A stretch of DNA of 64,000 nt from Thermoplasmata archaeon (GTDB lineage Archaea > Thermoplasmatota > Thermoplasmata > Thermoplasmatales > Thermoplasmataceae), in assembly GCA_021797355.1 (NCBI GenBank), contig JAJZZX010000001.1:124001-188000 (forward strand), in the 5' to 3' direction. This document shows positions 30,429 through 41,224 of this stretch, piece by piece. A program made the position numbers and the translations under genes. Within the stretch, counting starts at the first letter, position 1, and each line of letters starts with the position of its first letter. A model generated the notes under the pieces. The model was not told the DNA's origin. It did no database searches and saw nothing but the letters and a program-made list of their open reading frames with translations.

Positions 30429-31815
30429 ACAGAATTTTAGGGTATAACTTTAACCCAAATAAGTCAGAAACCTTCTTTAATCTCTCAGGTATCTCGGCGA
30501 GTGCTCTTCTTGCCCCCTCCGCTATGACATATATCTTTGACAGTTCGAAGAGAGCGTCCTTCACAGACATCTTCTATGAAAGACCCTTATCTTTCAGCAC
30601 ATTTAGGATGCTGAAGTACACGTACAGGGATATGAAGGATATGAAGAAATATCCCCTGATACCGTCGGTTGTGTGCAAATACGATTTGTCGTTCTCCAGC
30701 TCGTTCTTCATGGCATCAAATGCAACCTCCACTTCTTCCCGTGACTTGTAGAGTTCGTATATCTCCTTGGGATCGGACCGCATGTTGCTGAGGATTGCAA
30801 ATTTTCCAAGCTTGTTTCTCTCCTCCTTGAGATATTTCTGTGACATCTCGCCGGATTCAATCTTCCTGATGAGGTTTGTCTCCTCCTCCGCTCTGAGCAA
30901 TGTGTCCTCATACATGTACAGGATCTTATCGCCAAGATCCTTCATTCCTGCATTTATTCCTCTGTTGCGGAAGATGAAGCTTCTGTCCAGATCCATATTG
31001 AAATCAACAATGCTGAAATTCCTCCTTATTGCCACTATGAGATATACCCCATTCTTCCGTGGCATGTCATACGATGCAAGACCCCTGTCTGCAATGATGA
31101 CGCATTCCCTGATGTCGTATCTCTTCATTATGGAATCAAAGGCCTTGTAATCCCTCACGGATCCTGTAACTATTTCCATGATGACAGGCCTATGCCTCTT
31201 CCCTGAGAATACAAGGGCGAAGTTGATCTGATCCAGGTGCAGATGCTTGGGATTATGGCCCTTCTCTGCAAGGTTGATATTCTCGGATCGGGAGAATATT
31301 GATGACAGATCAAAGAGTATCTGATCTCGATTCGTTGTCAGTGACTGAAAGAACCCTGTCTGTGCTACGGTGTCGGACCCTATTATCCTGAGCTTCTCTG
31401 ATATGGTGTTCTCTGAAAGCGAGGCATCGATCTGTGTGGATGCGTATAATTTCTCCCATGCACTCCTCATGTATCTTATGGGTCTTGGGTCCTGGCACCT
31501 TATCATGGACATTGCAACGATCTCTTTCCAGTGATCCGGAAAGTGATGCCTGAGTTCAGGCATTATTTCCTTCACTACAGAAAGAAGGAGTTCAGAATTC
31601 CCGAATTCATATATGGATCGTCGGTTCTTTTTAACAAGACCATTCTCATTGATCCTCCCTATGTATTCGGATACACGGACACGCTTCTTCCTCTCCTTAT
31701 CCCATCTTGTTGTATCCTTGTATAGATAGTGGGAATTTCCTATCTTCTTGACCTCAATCGGAATACCGCGTTCTTCGCCTATTCTCTTCGCTATCTCCCT
31801 GATCTTGGGATCCAT
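30421..31815 (-). pseudogene. IS4/IS1634-like transposase interrupted by one in-frame TAG
   Basis: From ATG 31815, 413 codons run to TAG at 30574-30576; the same frame then continues for 50 codons (MSVKDALFELSKIYVIAEG ...) to a TAA at 30421-30423. The extension looks like the normal C-terminal tail of this transposase class, so the full product would be about 464 residues. DDE residues: Asp in HLHLDQINFALVFSG or the preceding segment, Asp in VIIADRGLAS, and the Y-x2-R-x3-E-x6-K type motif YKSREEVEVAFDAMKNELE. The stop removes only the tail; the 413-residue product may or may not be active. A single-base nonsense mutation is the simplest explanation. Confidence 0.8.
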
Positions 31816-32644: not shown

Positions 32645-33157
32645 ATGGCAAAGAAGAGGAATAAAAGTGATCCTCACATACGGGAAGCAATAGAAACCAT
32701 GCTTAATGCCGGCCAGAGTCAGCGTACCATGGCGGTATCTATGAGGATGCGTCGAGCCACTGTGGCCTCAATATTAAAGCAGATAAGAGAAAGTGAGTTA
32801 ATGCAGAAATCGCCAAATTCGAAACCGGGAGTCACTTCAGAACCATCCTGGAACCATGGCAGCAAATCACAAGCAGACAAATCGACTAGGGTCAGGAGGA
32901 AACCGGCTAAAGAAATCACCGAGGCTCGTACAGTTAGTCGTTACGTGCAGAAAGGGAGTGAATACCTGAGCGATATGCTGCTGAGTGACCTGAAACTCAG
33001 CATGGAATCGGCCAAGGCCATCCGTGAGCTTGAATTAAGGTATCGTGTGAGCGTCGAGAAGTACGGCGTAAACTGGTTTACGTTCCTGAACGAAGCGATT
33101 GAATGGGGATTTCAGTCCATTGTCGAGGCTGACGCCATGCTTAAGGAATGGAAGTGA
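32645..33157 (+). CDS. Accessory HTH protein of unknown function, possibly shortened by a TGA
   Basis: 170 residues. The N-terminal ~45 residues form a resolvase/Hin-like HTH (MLNAGQSQRTMAVSMRMRRATVASILKQI). A polar linker with RVRRKPAK follows, then a helical C-terminal region (YVQKGSEYLSDMLLSDLK ... EWGFQSIVEADAMLKEWK). After the TGA at 33155-33157 the same frame stays open for 32 more codons with helix-forming, charged composition (RQRERLNLEQETNQALE) to a TGA at 33254-33256. The original protein may have been about 203 residues. Surrounded by transposon debris; probably from a plasmid or other mobile element. Confidence 0.6.
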   Translation: MAKKRNKSDPHIREAIETMLNAGQSQRTMAVSMRMRRATVASILKQIRESELMQKSPNSKPGVTSEPSWNHGSKSQADKSTRVRRKPAKEITEARTVSRYVQKGSEYLSDMLLSDLKLSMESAKAIRELELRYRVSVEKYGVNWFTFLNEAIEWGFQSIVEADAMLKEWK

Positions 33158-34526: not shown

Positions 34527-35288
34527 TTATGGGTCTGATGTGACACTAACAAAGATCGGTATTGAAATGCTGCTCTCCTGATATCCGTTACCTGCTCCTG
34601 CTGAAAGTCCCACGTAGAATGAATAATCAGCTACTCCTCCATTAGTAAGTGAAATTCCAAAGTCAGAAACTGTGGGCCCAAAAGCAAAGGCATATCCTGA
34701 ACTAGCCGGTCCCCCAACTGTTACTGATGAATCACTTGTGGCGAATGTATAACCAGAAGAACCAGACAAACCTGCCACTCCACTCAAAGGATTACCTGTT
34801 GTGAATATGTCACTATGGCCAAGTGAACCAGTCACGTTGCTTAGATTCAATCCTTTTCCGCTGAAAGTAACCTTATCAATTACAGGTGTGCCAAAAATCA
34901 ATCCAACGCTCCCTTTATTAGTAAGTGTCATATGTACCTTAACCCAGTTTCCCGGAGCCAGATTTGAAACGTTTATGTAATAAACTATAACCTGCGCCCC
35001 ACTCGAAGTAGATGGCACGGTCGCCAGATTAGGCTCATCATTAAAAGGTATAACCTTACTGTCATTCAGGAAAGCCGTGTTTGTATTCTGACCAAATCCG
35101 CCTGTAACGGTTATGTTAGTATTTTGGGAATATCCAGTTACAAGTTCTGCGTATTCATTTGCTGTAATATCTCCAGCAGATGCCACTACTTTCGTAGTAA
35201 CTGTTCCACTAAATGCAGAATACGCCATTGCACCGCTTAAAGTAAGCATAATCGGTACAATCATAAGAGCTATCAATTTTTTATTCAT
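34527..35288 (-). CDS. TasA/camelysin-like secreted fibre subunit, paralogue A
   Basis: 253 residues. The N-terminus MNKKLIALMIVPIMLTLSGA is a hydrophobic signal followed by AYSAFSGTVTTKVVASAGDI, the pattern after SipW-type signal peptides of the TasA/camelysin family. The rest is beta-rich, Gly/Ser/Thr-rich, Cys-free, with NLAPGNWVKV near the middle and a C-terminal GNGYQESSISIPIFVSVT. Both motifs recur in the paralogues at 35315 and 39112. Likely exported and processed by the signal peptidase at 36047-37228, then polymerised outside (inference). Second gene of a two-gene unit, 26 bases behind paralogue B; its GGTGG ribosome-binding site lies in a hairpin. Confidence 0.75.
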   Translation of the reverse strand: MNKKLIALMIVPIMLTLSGAMAYSAFSGTVTTKVVASAGDITANEYAELVTGYSQNTNITVTGGFGQNTNTAFLNDSKVIPFNDEPNLATVPSTSSGAQVIVYYINVSNLAPGNWVKVHMTLTNKGSVGLIFGTPVIDKVTFSGKGLNLSNVTGSLGHSDIFTTGNPLSGVAGLSGSSGYTFATSDSSVTVGGPASSGYAFAFGPTVSDFGISLTNGGVADYSFYVGLSAGAGNGYQESSISIPIFVSVTSDP

Positions 35289-35293
35289 TTATC

Positions 35294-35324
35294 CCACCAA
35301 AAAATGGTGGACGCTCATGCGTCC
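35294..35324 (-). promoter_or_regulatory. Two abutting hairpins between subunit genes B and A
   Basis: CCACCA-AAAAA-TGGTGG (35294-35310) and GGACGC-TCAT-GCGTCC (35309-35324) are perfect stems sharing two bases. In the minus-strand mRNA the first met covers the stop codon of gene B, the second contains the GGUGG ribosome-binding site of gene A, five bases before its AUG. Both could not be fully paired at once. They could attenuate or hold back translation of A relative to B. Confidence 0.5.
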
Positions 35325-35941
35325 GAGGTCACCGTTATCACTACGCTCAGACTGAATGAGCTTTCCTGATAGCTGTTTCCACTGCCTGATGCAAGTCCCA
35401 CAACTACAAAGTATGATGCGGTTCCGCCGTTATCTATGGATCCGGACGGGATTGAGGATACCATGTAAACGTAACCTGTTCCAGTCATGTCAGAGGTAAA
35501 CGAACTCCACGAGGATGCTGAAGTGTCAGATAGACCAGACGTTATCGTTCCAGTTGCTGTTGCAGATGATAGCATAAACCCAACAGATCCGTTGTTTGTA
35601 ACAGTGAACTCGAAGGTTGCCCAGTTACCAGGTGCCATATTGCCAAGGGTTACTGTCTGAGTTGTTGTATTACCACTCTGAGAGTCAAGTCCTGCCCATC
35701 CAAGGCTCATTGGGCTAAAGTCAGAAGACATAGGGCCTGCTGTTAATTGAACACCATTCACTGTCATTTGGGTGTTATCCTGTGTATAATTATACAGGTA
35801 TGCATGCTGGTTAAAGCTTATGTAGCCCGCACTCGCATTTACGTCTGTTGTGATTGACCCAGAAAAAGCGGAAAATGCCAGTGCTCCTGACATTACCACC
35901 AATACTGGAACAATTGCCAACACTAACAATTTCTTGTTCAT
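35315..35941 (-). CDS. TasA/camelysin-like secreted fibre subunit, paralogue B
   Basis: 208 residues. Signal MNKKLLVLAIVPVLVVMSGA, then LAFSAFSGSITTDVNASAGYI. Shares NMAPGNWATF and a C-terminal GNSYQESSFSLSVVITVT with paralogues A and C. Cys-free, rich in Ser, Thr, Gly and aromatic residues as in secreted beta proteins of acidophiles. First gene of the B-A unit, with TATA at 35991-35999 and a GGTGA ribosome-binding site. Probably the most strongly expressed subunit because it is promoter-proximal (inference). Confidence 0.75.
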   Translation of the reverse strand: MNKKLLVLAIVPVLVVMSGALAFSAFSGSITTDVNASAGYISFNQHAYLYNYTQDNTQMTVNGVQLTAGPMSSDFSPMSLGWAGLDSQSGNTTTQTVTLGNMAPGNWATFEFTVTNNGSVGFMLSSATATGTITSGLSDTSASSWSSFTSDMTGTGYVYMVSSIPSGSIDNGGTASYFVVVGLASGSGNSYQESSFSLSVVITVTSDA

Positions 35942-36046: not shown

Positions 36047-37228
36047 TCATACGTGGGATTTTCTTACTTTATGTCCAGATGTACCCTCCTTGACTATTGA
36101 GGCCACAATGATTATCATTACGGCAGCAGCTGTTACCCTGCCATAAATTAAGGGATAACCAAGGTAAGGAACATGATAGATCACGATACCCACAAGATCT
36201 GATGATGGAACAAGCCCTGGATCATCCACAGGATTATTGATTCCACGGGTTCTGAAATATATTTTTCCATCTACATTTTTTATCTGGACCACCTCGTGTG
36301 CATAAAGAGTACCGTTGTCCCATGGAGCATGAAATTCGATTATTTCGCCTGTTGTGATCGACTGTGCAGATGCTGGCTTTATGATTAGGAGCGATCCAGG
36401 AACAATGACAGGATACATGCTTGGCGTAGGGTCAGCCGCCACTGTGTGGGTTACATAGCCACCAATTGCACCAGTTGCAATAATCAAGATGAACACTACA
36501 AAGGCAACGTCTGATAACTTTGTTTTTTTTCTTACATGTATCCTCCTTTTTGATTTAAGAAGCTTCCTGACCCAGATATTCTCTCCCAGCGCAAAGTAAG
36601 TCATCCAGAAGAGTATTGATACTGCTATGATTTCCCATACAATATTAAAAAGTGGTGAAACCTTCTCCGTAATGCCAAGAAATGAAAACGTTGAATAAAG
36701 AAAGAAGAATAGGACAGGAGTAACCAGTTTTTTATTCGCTGAAATGTAAAGATACGAAACATATATGGAAAATGCAAGGTCAAAACTCAGCTGATACAGA
36801 AGAATTTTAACTATCTGAATCAGAGCGTATGGGACAACTACGGGCGTAAGCACAAGAAAATATGCAACCCCTGAGGCTATCATTCCGTAGAATATTTTCT
36901 TGCTGCTCATATCCACAAATGTTGAGAAGATAACAGGAACAAGTACAATGGAAAGTGCGAGGGAATACTCCATTGAGTTTATGAAAGCGGAACTATAGAA
37001 AACAACATTCAGGGTCTGTGTAAGAAATGCAGGCATTATGAGAAGAAATGCCAGAACGGAAAAGAGAACTGGCGCGTACGGCCATTTTTTGTCCCCAAGG
37101 AATTTTCTGTAATAGAGGAACAGAACCGGTACTGTTGAAAGCATCACTATCCACGGGCTGAATTTGAAAAAGTAGCTGGACTGCCAAAAGGCGATGTACA
37201 AAACAGGTATGTACCATCTCTGCCTCAT
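36047..37228 (-). CDS. Signal peptidase I (S26B) with large polytopic N-terminal domain
   Basis: 393 residues. Residues about 8-215 hold six or seven hydrophobic helices; a further helix at about 241-260 precedes the catalytic domain. Catalytic Ser is S270 (PTPSMYP), the general base is H311 (TLYAHEVVQI) as in archaeal/ER and SipW-type enzymes rather than the bacterial Lys, and D335/D336 lie in TRGINNPVDDPG. Ordinary archaeal enzymes are under 220 residues, so the N-terminal half is an addition, perhaps for subunit docking. Its start overlaps the DUF5305-like gene by four bases. Lies between the fibre-subunit genes, suggesting a dedicated processing enzyme. Confidence 0.85.
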   Translation of the reverse strand: MRQRWYIPVLYIAFWQSSYFFKFSPWIVMLSTVPVLFLYYRKFLGDKKWPYAPVLFSVLAFLLIMPAFLTQTLNVVFYSSAFINSMEYSLALSIVLVPVIFSTFVDMSSKKIFYGMIASGVAYFLVLTPVVVPYALIQIVKILLYQLSFDLAFSIYVSYLYISANKKLVTPVLFFFLYSTFSFLGITEKVSPLFNIVWEIIAVSILFWMTYFALGENIWVRKLLKSKRRIHVRKKTKLSDVAFVVFILIIATGAIGGYVTHTVAADPTPSMYPVIVPGSLLIIKPASAQSITTGEIIEFHAPWDNGTLYAHEVVQIKNVDGKIYFRTRGINNPVDDPGLVPSSDLVGIVIYHVPYLGYPLIYGRVTAAAVMIIIVASIVKEGTSGHKVRKSHV

Positions 37229-38172
37229 TTTTTAATCTCCGCATAATACGTTTTTCCGTCAATCTCAATAAATACTATATCTTTGAATATAAACACAGGC
37301 CTTTCCACAAAAGTTGCCATTCTGAAAAGGTCATCTGTACTTTTTACAGGAATGGATCCTTCTGGTGGACCAATACCTAGTTCTATTAGATTCTCACGAT
37401 TATCATTTTTGAATTTCTGAACAGGGTCAGGTCGTGAAGGCATAACCAAATAGGCGATAGAGCCAAGAAGTATTGCACCCACAAAAATCAGTGGGTAAGA
37501 AATATCGCGGCTCAGTGGAATAATTATCTTTCCGGGAATCACAGCGTTCCTGAAATATGAACCTGTCAATGGAGCATCTCCCGGTCCAGTTACCGAATCG
37601 GTTGTCCCGCCTACGGCAATAGTAAGGTTGGAATCTGCCAGCCCAAGATTGCTTTTTGCCTGTGAAACTATGTTTATTGAATATGACGAACCTGAGGTAA
37701 AACCAAGCTGATCATTGATCTCAGATCCTAGGGAAACATTGGATGTCAGATTTATTCTCATCACAAAAGAATCCGAAAAGCCAGATGTTGCGTTAAAAAC
37801 TTTATCTGTGCTGTAAGAAAGTTTTTCCCATGAGGGATTTGAAGATATGACGTACACACTGTAACTGTAATAAAGTCTCTCACTTAATCCCTGAGAATTG
37901 AAATAATTTACGTTCACATCAATAAATATATTCTTGCTGATGCTTTTGTATATTACTGATGGATTTGTAAGGTTAGTATTGTTGCCGTAAAGGGTGTTGT
38001 TACGTAACTGATCAACAAGAGTCATACGTGTATCTAGCGAATAAGAACCATATGCTTCGCGAACATCCCTAGGACGAGGCTGAACAAGAACAATGAGAGC
38101 TACGGCAAGAATAATGATGCCCACTACTGCTAAAACCGTAGATTTACTTTTCTTACTAATTATAGACTTCAT
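37225..38172 (-). CDS. DUF5305-like membrane protein of the fibre locus
   Basis: 315 residues from ATG 38172 (a TTG at 38187 is possible). One N-terminal helix (about 14-33), an extracellular beta-rich region of some 190 residues with several N-x-S/T sites, a second helix at about 225-250, and a cytoplasmic tail ending in a beta-hairpin-like segment (FIEIDGKTYYAEIKK). This topology and sequence resemble DUF5305 proteins, commonly next to archaeal signal peptidases. A TATA-like AAAATATTTT lies about 30 bases upstream. The coupled overlap with the signal peptidase implies a joint complex; an anchor or assembly platform is plausible. Confidence 0.65.
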   Translation of the reverse strand: MKSIISKKSKSTVLAVVGIIILAVALIVLVQPRPRDVREAYGSYSLDTRMTLVDQLRNNTLYGNNTNLTNPSVIYKSISKNIFIDVNVNYFNSQGLSERLYYSYSVYVISSNPSWEKLSYSTDKVFNATSGFSDSFVMRINLTSNVSLGSEINDQLGFTSGSSYSINIVSQAKSNLGLADSNLTIAVGGTTDSVTGPGDAPLTGSYFRNAVIPGKIIIPLSRDISYPLIFVGAILLGSIAYLVMPSRPDPVQKFKNDNRENLIELGIGPPEGSIPVKSTDDLFRMATFVERPVFIFKDIVFIEIDGKTYYAEIKK

Positions 38173-38253
38173 GAAGATATGAAACAAGTGAATATCCCTT
38201 AAAATATTTTGCAGTACAGAATATATATCACAAAATGTTGAAAGAATGAGAGT

Positions 38254-38940
38254 GTGATTTTACATCCATTTTATTTTTGTGGAACGCACAATATGATTTT
38301 CAAACCATTATCTCAAACCATAACTGTGTGTGCACTACCCTTTCAGAAGCTGATCAAGTTTCATGCTACTTTCCACCTCACTTCCCATTTCCGACTTGTA
38401 ATACAGTATCCACATGACCCTCTTTCCACTGACGTCATAGATGACCATTATGTCTTTCATAATATTCACAGTTGATGGAATGGGTTTGCTCTCCTTTGCA
38501 CTGTGTATCACATTGTATATCGATGAAAGGAAAAGATAGGCAAGCAGAGACAAGAACATGTGAACCCTTATTTTATGGGGGATCTGTGATACAGGGGGAA
38601 TCCCATGTCCATATTGTTTATGGTGCGGAAGCAGTGTTTCACCCTGTTTCTCTTCCCGTAAAGATCAATGATCTCTTCAGCCCTGAGATCGGAAATGCTG
38701 GTTAAGAGTGAATTCATTCCAAGCGTCTTTAGTCTTCGGGATATCTTGGCATGATGGACAGTCAGACCAGGGATCATTCAGGTTCTGAGATTCCGGGTAT
38801 ATCCTGTTTCCAGATGTTGAAGGGAGCATATCAAGCATGAGATCAGGACATCCTGATCTTATGACGTAAGCCATAAAAATTTTATAAAAATACAGGAAAA
38901 ACATGGAGAAATTCTCCATGTTTCACTATTATGCTGGTAT
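38254..38940 (-). pseudogene. Broken IS4-type transposase remnant
   Basis: On the minus strand, IIDLYGKRNRVKHCFRTINN (Y-x2-R-x3-E-like segment with Lys/His in place of Glu) is followed by MGFPLYHRSPIK, then, after a one-base frameshift in a C run near 38572, KIRVHMFLSLLAYLFLSSIYN, the usual hydrophobic helix near the end of such transposases. The N-terminal two thirds are missing and no inverted repeats are seen. It sits between paralogue C and the DUF5305-like gene, so the locus was interrupted by an insertion that has decayed. 38941-39111 shows no gene. Confidence 0.65.
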
Positions 38941-39111
38941 CATAAGCTGTTTTTACGCGTTTAAGAAAGACATCGCACTAAATTAGATGGTTTTTAGAAA
39001 TCCACTTAGGATTCAGCGAGGGTAATGCATGTATAAATCTCTTACCAAAATTATGCAATAAACCTCACATATATTCCTTAATTTCCATAAGAAGTGGCCT
39101 GTTTAAGGCAG

Positions 39112-39768
39112 TCACTGCTCAGTCAGCGTAATGATTAGGGGAAGGTTAAACGAGGATTCCTGATAGACATTGCCTGAAGCTTGCGATAGAAAAATGAAGA
39201 AGCCTAATGTCAGAGTGCAGCCAGGTGATACCTGATTTCCATTTTCCCATATGATCCCATAATACCCCCCAGGATTCTGGCATTGATTTACAGTGTTGTT
39301 TACCACAGCAAACCAGGCTTCCTGGTCGTTGCAGGTGGTCGAATTGTAGAAACTCAAGCCATTGCCAGAAAACTGCCCAAAGGAAATATTTGTCACAATC
39401 TGTGTCTGGCTGTTCGGATTATAAATTTGAATACAGAACAATAGTGCATTTCCAGGTGAAAGGTTAGATATGTTAAGGTAGTCATAGATTGAACCATCAT
39501 AAGAAGTATGGTTAGGAATAACTTGGACCGGTGGATAGAGTTCATTGAACAGACAATTTGAATTTCCGCTGAAAATATGGTTGTTTACATATAGTTCAGT
39601 ATTGTCAGCCCAAAAGGCACAGACAGAAACACCATCATTTATTCCAACGAAATTTGCAGTTGCTGATACATTTGTTGTTGAAGTTCCTGAAAATGCGGAA
39701 AATGCCATGGATCCGGACATAACAGAAAGTATCATAACCGAACATATCACAATGATCCGGATCCTCAC
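39112..39768 (-). CDS. TasA/camelysin-like secreted subunit, Cys-rich paralogue C
   Basis: 218 residues. Signal MRIRIIVICSVMILSVMSGS, then MAFSAFSGTSTTNVSATANF, matching A and B. Shares NLSPGNALLF and C-terminal GNVYQESSFNLPLIITLT. Unlike A and B it has six Cys in the mature part (in VCAFW, NCLFN, FCIQI, TCNDQ, QCQNP, GCTL), an even number suited to disulfides. It has its own promoter (39805-39814). A tip, base or adaptor subunit is possible (inference). Confidence 0.75.
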   Translation of the reverse strand: MRIRIIVICSVMILSVMSGSMAFSAFSGTSTTNVSATANFVGINDGVSVCAFWADNTELYVNNHIFSGNSNCLFNELYPPVQVIPNHTSYDGSIYDYLNISNLSPGNALLFCIQIYNPNSQTQIVTNISFGQFSGNGLSFYNSTTCNDQEAWFAVVNNTVNQCQNPGGYYGIIWENGNQVSPGCTLTLGFFIFLSQASGNVYQESSFNLPLIITLTEQ

Positions 39769-39893: not shown

Positions 39894-40535
39894 TCATCGT
39901 GGGTTGGATTGAGACAGTTCAATGCCTGTATTTTCTGCACTCATATTAGTATCGTGATCGACATATTTACTTTCCCGCAATGCGTGTGTTCTAAGTGCAA
40001 TATCCATATATAGTAGGATTATAACAGAGCCAAATATGAGCGTAGCGCCTATCATTATATCATTAACCTGTTTAATGGGCCCAAATGCTGGCAGCTCAAC
40101 ATAGATTAAAATGATGAAGTATTGCATGGCTGCAACTATTATACCGTAAGCAAGCACTATCCTTGTAAGAATAGAAAATAAAGTTTCCAATGAGGTCAGA
40201 TTTTTCTGGTTTTTTCTTATTCGCTCCAGATAGCCGTTCAGATCTGCAATCTCATAAGTTGCATCGTTCGTTATGTTGTCTGCACCCTCCTCTATTTTTT
40301 CAGCGAATATTTCCACATGCTCAAGAAGCTGGTCGGCATCCTTGCTGGTCTTGCTTTCTAGGAAAAAGAGGATCAGCTTCCTTAGGAATATAAGTTTCAT
40401 TATTTTCGCCTGCTCCTCGCCAAGTTCTTTTAGCTCTTCTATATACTTTCGTGATTCACTTCTTAGTGCCATATACAAAGAAGAACAGGTAATGAGTATA
40501 ATTGTGGGTGTCCATTCTACAATGGGGTTTATCAT
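39894..40535 (-). CDS. Membrane protein of unknown function, paired with winged-helix protein
   Basis: 213 residues. Hydrophobic helices near 8-24, 115-145 and 155-180, with a charged, probably coiled-coil cytoplasmic region between (SKTSKDADQLLEHVEIFAEK). No family recognised. Its ATG overlaps the TGA of the winged-helix gene (ATGA), so the two are coupled. A membrane sensor or effector that works with the regulator is a reasonable guess, no more. Confidence 0.65.
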   Translation of the reverse strand: MINPIVEWTPTIILITCSSLYMALRSESRKYIEELKELGEEQAKIMKLIFLRKLILFFLESKTSKDADQLLEHVEIFAEKIEEGADNITNDATYEIADLNGYLERIRKNQKNLTSLETLFSILTRIVLAYGIIVAAMQYFIILIYVELPAFGPIKQVNDIMIGATLIFGSVIILLYMDIALRTHALRESKYVDHDTNMSAENTGIELSQSNPR

Positions 40536-41224
40536 GTTGCATACAGTTTCCTTGCACTCTGAAGAGCTTCCCTGCCGGTCTTGGTAAGAGCATATGAATT
40601 CTCTCTGTCGGTTTCTTTCCTCAATTCCACATAATTTTTCCTTATGAGATCATTTAGAAGTTCAATCGCAGTTTTGTAGTTAAGATTACACTTGTAAACT
40701 ACGTTGGTAATCCTGCTGCTTTGAGAGTTAAGCAGCTCCATCACGTCAAGCATAATCTTCATTCGATCCCTCCTGATTCTCATCGTACTTGCCGACTTGC
40801 CAGCGATTAGGGATTTCTTCGGGTTTGCCTTGCTAATTGCTGGATCGTAAGTCTCATTCCCGACAATGAGCCGGTTTACAATTATGGCCTTCGAAAGCTT
40901 CAGCGCATTGAGGTGTGGGCTTTCGTATCCATCGCACTTGCATAAGACAAATATAAAATCAATTTTGAGGTCAAGCTTGGCCATATGAATCCTTCCCATG
41001 GCTTTGTATATCGATTCCTCAGTAGGTTCACTTACGATTCCTATTATCTTTATTTCTCCCCGGGATTCACCATAAAATTCAACATGATGAACCACTCCGG
41101 TAACACCCTTGAGGGAAACGTTTTGCCTAATTATCCAGTCTTCGGGAGATACATAAAGGATACCATCTATCAAAGAAATACCCGGTAAATCATTGCCAGA
41201 GAAGGTACTGAGTGAAGATGACAT
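40532..41224 (-). CDS. Winged-helix (HTH_45-like) protein with unknown N-terminal domain
   Basis: 230 residues. Residues about 145-225 form a winged helix (RRDRMKIMLDVMELLNSQSS, then KTAIELLNDLIRKNYVEL, then YALTKTGREAL), the pattern of archaeal HTH_45 regulators. The first 140 residues are an alpha/beta domain I do not recognise (GEIKIIGIVSEPTEESIYKAM, FIFVLCKCDG). Transcribed with the membrane protein, directly upstream of the fibre-subunit C gene, so it may control that locus. Divergent from the methionine aminopeptidase gene. Confidence 0.65.
   Translation of the reverse strand: MSSSLSTFSGNDLPGISLIDGILYVSPEDWIIRQNVSLKGVTGVVHHVEFYGESRGEIKIIGIVSEPTEESIYKAMGRIHMAKLDLKIDFIFVLCKCDGYESPHLNALKLSKAIIVNRLIVGNETYDPAISKANPKKSLIAGKSASTMRIRRDRMKIMLDVMELLNSQSSRITNVVYKCNLNYKTAIELLNDLIRKNYVELRKETDRENSYALTKTGREALQSARKLYAT

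Follow-up and report, generated by a model that had tools for sequence, protein, structure and literature searches.

The stretch of DNA that we analysed (64,000 nucleotides in full; hereafter the window) belongs to an acid-loving archaeon and carries on its (-) strand a cassette that includes a dedicated signal peptidase. The peptidase open reading frame (36047-37228, (-)) is intact, begins with ATG and encodes 393 aa, in which an N-terminal polytopic module precedes a Sec11-type S26 domain. Overlapping its start by 4 bases is the gene for a DUF5305-like protein (37225-38169, (-)), laid out as a helix, an ectodomain, a second helix and a cytoplasmic domain; the start of this gene at 38169 is conserved with relatives. 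Three putative fibre subunits lie around this pair, namely S1 (35315-35941, (-); signal peptide ...MSGALAFSAFSG), S2 (34527-35288, (-)) and S3 (39112-39768, (-)). Beyond S3 are a conserved membrane protein of the cassette, predicted to have two or three helices (39894-40535, (-)), and an HTH_45 / Sso10a-like winged-helix regulator that is conserved beside the cassette (40532-41224, (-)). Close relatives retain the order of winged-helix regulator, small membrane protein, subunit, DUF5305-like protein, peptidase and two subunits.

Several smaller features of the region were also recorded. The membrane-protein and regulator genes (39894-41224) overlap by 4 bases, and the pair recurs beside the cassette in families f1 and f4. 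A segment of ~770 bp between S3 and the DUF5305 gene (38200-38960) is missing from two relatives, and its frames resemble a decayed transposase, of which they would be the 3' part. A DDE transposase lies downstream of the cassette together with an HTH protein (30574-31815 and 32645-33157), as would suit a region that is mobile or variable. Three of the four cassettes of family f12 (L050-L053) carry a further gene directly at the 3' end of the peptidase gene, with an overlap of 4 bases; its product has 176-179 aa and two or three predicted helices, and the one copy tested had no Pfam match.

The product of 36047-37228 is, by its sequence, a Sec11-type signal peptidase with predicted cleavage activity. 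Residues 237-378 match TIGR02228, NCBI's model for archaeal signal peptidase I (E=3e-21; 75.9 bits, above the cut-off of 51.85), and human SEC11A/C align to residues 265-361. The presumptive catalytic residues Ser270 (the nucleophile; codon 36419-36421, (-)), His311 (36296-36298, (-)) and Asp336 (36221-36223, (-)) are invariant in 16 homologues with identities down to ~25%. These results agree with the first-pass annotation, which had confined the catalytic Ser-His-Asp domain to the C-terminal part of the protein. The S26 catalytic domain (residues 263-358; 36155-36442, (-)), recognised by TIGR02228 and Foldseek, is predicted to lie outside the membrane. It is preceded by transmembrane helix 9 (residues 241-262; 36443-36508, (-)), the counterpart of the single N-terminal anchor of Sec11, and followed by a C-terminal transmembrane helix (residues 359-382; 36083-36154, (-)). 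Homologues with the same architecture were found at 88-90%, 62% and 55% identity and down to ~25%; since the architecture is conserved over this whole range, the peptidase is not an ORF artefact.

The N-module itself comprises residues 1-215 (36584-37228, (-)) and is joined to helix 9 by a basic linker that is predicted to be cytoplasmic (residues 216-240; 36509-36583, (-)). The first-pass annotation described the first ~215 residues as a polytopic module of six or seven helices. The polytopic module stands, and the helix count is revised: homologue-averaged hydropathy, loop charges and the helix pattern of a low-confidence AlphaFold model together favour eight helices with the N-terminus inside. 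Averaged over homologues, the predicted-inside loops hold 0.75-8.9 K+R (the linker has the mean of 8.9), against 0-0.56 for the short loops that join module helices on the outside. Both termini and the K/R-rich linker are thus predicted to be inside, and the eight-helix topology puts the catalytic domain, like that of Sec11, on the outer side. Note that in the AlphaFold model of the full peptidase, built from a four-sequence alignment, the N-module has a pLDDT below 50 and only the S26 part is usable. Foldseek matches for this model were limited to Sec11 and small barrels and fell within the S26 part, which resembles the catalytic subunits of the human signal peptidase complex (SPC; 7p2p/7p2q).

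The module-bearing peptidase is not the housekeeping enzyme, because a separate, module-less signal peptidase of 267 aa is present in this genome and in 55 of 61 relatives; its locus also encodes a GTPase that we name from sequence as FtsY/SRP-type. The earlier suppositions that the normal enzyme lacks the module and that a general signal peptidase exists elsewhere in the genome thus both hold. A housekeeping peptidase with an odd start was considered and rejected, as a separate housekeeping enzyme exists. By profile search, the N-module is carried by 32 of 300 Thermoplasmata genomes from four GTDB families, in a patchy distribution, and is always fused to S26. The first-pass annotation had proposed a search for the module as a stand-alone protein, and this search of the 300 genomes of the class returned fusions alone, with no free copy. 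The sole short frame that matched the module at full strength, in G285, runs off the end of its contig. No module was found beyond the class among 341 genomes of the phylum, and a search of plasmids outside the class for CPBP-S26 fusions or DUF5305 gave S26 matches only and no DUF5305 match. We found no published report of the module-S26 fusion in the literature searched.

Other S26 architectures were also encountered. Besides 36047-37228, the genome encodes two further S26-like proteins, one of them the module-less 267-aa enzyme. The second S26 protein (L070 5780-7411; C9:62782-64410 of the own genome) has 543 aa with an 11-helix N-terminal part, is patchy (10 of 61 relatives' genomes) and has no adjoining subunit genes. 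We rejected this protein (L006/L070) as a paralogue of the module, given that its 11-helix part did not match the module profile. In L064, L065, L066, L067, L076 and L147 (families f10, f20 and f27), S26 is N-terminal and is followed by a C-terminal extension of ~400 aa that contains an ectodomain and additional helices. This is a further polytopic layout of S26 within the class. In one genome (G024; L045 6224-7457), the peptidase frame is broken within the N-module into overlapping frames of 158 and 270 aa, and the S26 part stays open.

The closest companion of the module is the DUF5305-like protein. Profile searches of the 300 genomes placed its gene within ~1 kb of the module in all 32 module-bearing genomes, and TasA-like subunit genes usually accompany the pair. 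Five genomes outside the 32 also have a DUF5305 match: three match just its C-terminal cytoplasmic part, one has a contig that ends at the expected peptidase position, and one (G257) is truly without an adjacent peptidase. Orthologues in five relatives exceed the cut-off of PF17231 (DUF5305), two of which were rechecked singly; the copy in the window has no PF17231 match. In a further genome (G210; L038 3282-5868), an inserted frame of 501 aa interrupts the DUF5305-like gene, which is intact in locus L002, near-identical in other respects. A subunit profile run over the window's own genome recovered three proteins only, all within the cassette and less than 4 kb from the peptidase. Together with the constant DUF5305-like neighbour, this ties the peptidase to one gene cassette. 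As the pairing of module and S26 keeps the same partners in several families of archaea, the module is probably a membrane scaffold built into this peptidase and does not belong to the ordinary secretion enzyme.

Fibre formation by the three subunits is plausible: they are small secreted proteins with a beta-rich model and a motif in common. Across nine subunits, G19, A22, S24, A25, F26 and G28 are invariant around the cleavage region. The AlphaFold model of a subunit is beta-rich with a mean pLDDT of 67, and a Foldseek search of the PDB with this model gave no match at E<=0.001 and none that was TasA-like. Against PF12389 and TIGR04088 (TasA/camelysin/SipW-type), the subunits of the window fell below the cut-offs, with a best E of 0.37. 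A distant relative (L069) passes both PF12389 and TIGR04088, and is linked through the signal-peptide region only. Kinship of the subunits to TasA/AbpA by sequence is weak.

SipW-type systems elsewhere in Archaea have peptidases without the module. In family f22, SipW-type proteins are encoded near a plain 168-aa peptidase, and on a plasmid of the haloarchaeon Natronorubrum bangense (L158), a SipW-dependent-type protein adjoins a 232-aa signal peptidase. Because plain peptidases of 168-232 aa serve SipW-type substrates in these lineages, cleavage as such does not need the module, which therefore adds something that those lineages lack or do otherwise. A rival to the scaffold reading is that the module, whether derived from the CPBP family (below) or of other origin, only shapes the lipid environment or helix window at the active site and so selects the cassette's signal peptides, which are short and unusual, with no docking of partners. 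The eight helices stand immediately before the catalytic anchor on a short basic linker, the fusion to S26 is invariant, and the narrow motif around the cleavage region does not vary among the nine precursors. Accessory helices are also thought to act in this way in the eukaryotic signal peptidase complex. However, this explanation alone leaves the unbroken companionship with the DUF5305-like gene (32/32) unexplained, and signals of the SipW type are handled elsewhere by plain peptidases. We consider it rather unlikely.

The ancestry of the module is indicated by GTDB family f13, which has the same cassette with a peptidase of 450-520 aa. Four of its seven N-modules (L055, L058, L063 and L075) score above the cut-off for PF02517, the Rce1-like/CPBP family (28.7-33.9 bits; cut-off 22.4), and f13 modules match local free CPBP proteases (P=8.5e-5) with EExxxR in register. 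Window-type modules (families f1 and f12) align with f13 modules in a collinear profile match of 174 columns (P=1.9e-6), far beyond the controls, which gave P>=0.39 for reversed profiles and P>=0.0087 for six unrelated polytopic families. The f12 sub-group alone did not reach a match to f13 modules (P=0.13). The window's own module had no Pfam match, PF02517 at E<=1 included, and direct profile comparison of window-type modules with free CPBP proteases was not significant (P 0.12-0.37); membership of CPBP thus rests on the f13 intermediates. A tree of the S26 domains neither supports nor rejects a single origin of the f1/f12 and f13 fusions (AU p=0.465).

The lack of a direct Pfam or profile match, together with the low confidence of the module model, would also suit an unrelated polytopic domain, transporter-like or of a new fold, that resembles f13 and CPBP by convergence and may form a translocation platform. 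We regard this as improbable, as the collinear match to f13 far exceeds both kinds of control, and the two types of module share their position before S26 and their DUF5305 neighbour. Rather than an unknown fold, the module is, through its profile homology to f13, most likely a degenerate CPBP domain.

The decay of this domain can be followed through the alignments. In the window, residues 94-105 (IVLVPVIFSTFV; 36914-36949, (-)) align with the catalytic EExxxR motif of CPBP proteases and have neither its Glu nor its Arg, a loss shared by all f1/f12 members. Both catalytic His of CPBP proteases are replaced in every module examined, f13 included. Motif 1 is partly kept in f13 as EEGLFRG (L075), QEAVFRG (L055) and GE..FRG (L058 and L063), is further decayed in L056, L060 and L061 (QV or EV), and is unrecognisable in f1/f12. 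These partial motifs in f13 could mean that the module still performs chemistry or binds a ligand in part of the family, for example by breaking down the cleaved-off signal peptide or retaining it in the former CPBP cavity, and is vestigial in the lineage of the window; with both His positions replaced in all members and motif 1 gone from f1/f12, this is highly improbable. Because the motif positions are replaced and the His absent, we describe the module as derived from CPBP and not as an active member. With its catalytic residues gone, it is most likely a pseudoprotease of the CPBP type. The simplest account of these alignments is that a CPBP membrane protease became joined to a Sec11-type peptidase and afterwards lost its own activity by decay.

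On balance, we lean toward a reading in which the cassette-dedicated Sec11-type peptidase cleaves the three neighbouring subunits, and the dead CPBP module serves as a membrane scaffold that binds the DUF5305 protein and the precursors. The S26 domain would cleave the subunit precursors, and the pseudo-CPBP module would keep its active site at the outer face of the membrane. The module may also hold the signal-anchored precursors and bind its constant companion, the DUF5305-like protein, so that cleavage could be linked to the transfer of the newly exposed N-terminus of the subunit into assembly. There are precedents for such a role. APH-1, which is homologous to CPBP proteases (PMC6588880), is a scaffold in gamma-secretase (PMC7248309), and Abx1 regulates a kinase by protein contact without need of its putative CPBP catalytic residues (PMC3578759). 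The module was first proposed as a docking or translocation platform; by analogy with these cases, docking or scaffolding is plausible, and translocation is not supported, given that nothing in the module is channel-like and its detectable kin are CPBP proteases.

More tentatively, pseudo-CPBP module, S26 domain and DUF5305 protein could possibly work as a single machine in the membrane that both processes the subunits and assembles them into donor-strand fibres. This would be an archaeal case, independent of gamma-secretase, in which a dead intramembrane protease has come to scaffold another protease, and no assembly platform for TasA/AbpA-type fibres would have been known before it. Assembly of Sulfolobus threads may be spontaneous or catalysed by unknown machinery (PMC9715654). 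A peptidase with a built-in scaffold and one constant partner is a concrete two-protein candidate for the assembly of archaeal TasA-like or bundling-pilus fibres. If true, a CPBP fold would have been put to use for a second time, APH-1 being the first, as a scaffold that supports a different protease without catalysis of its own.

Compared with known systems, the window peptidase resembles the type I signal peptidase of Archaea and the endoplasmic reticulum (Sec11; TIGR02228, MEROPS S26B) in its catalytic domain, its Ser-His-Asp residues, its anchor helix and its outside-facing active site. Unlike those enzymes, it carries an additional N-terminal stretch of ~215 residues and eight predicted helices, and it is an accessory, cassette-bound protein alongside a separate housekeeping peptidase. 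With CPBP/Rce1-like proteases (PF02517), it shares a predicted eight-helix N-in layout, collinear motif regions and f13 versions that pass the Pfam cut-off; in contrast to them, it has no catalytic Glu or His, is fused to a second protease and has never been found free in such a form. The predicted topology agrees with the eight-helix fold of MmRce1 (4CAD), for a module modelled at a pLDDT below 50. The haloarchaeal SipW-type locus (L158) likewise has a signal peptidase beside a SipW-dependent-type protein, but its peptidase has no N-module. Bacillus subtilis tapA-sipW-tasA and the archaeal bundling pili (AbpA) also combine a dedicated signal peptidase with substrates that form surface filaments and with accessory genes. 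However, SipW is short and without the CPBP module that the window peptidase has, the window subunits are weakly TasA-like by sequence, and the constant neighbour is DUF5305 instead of TapA. In mechanism, the nearest analogue is APH-1 of gamma-secretase, a CPBP-related membrane domain that scaffolds another protease, as the window module would do. APH-1 is a separate subunit and its partner, presenilin, is an intramembrane aspartyl protease, whereas in the window the module is fused to a serine signal peptidase.
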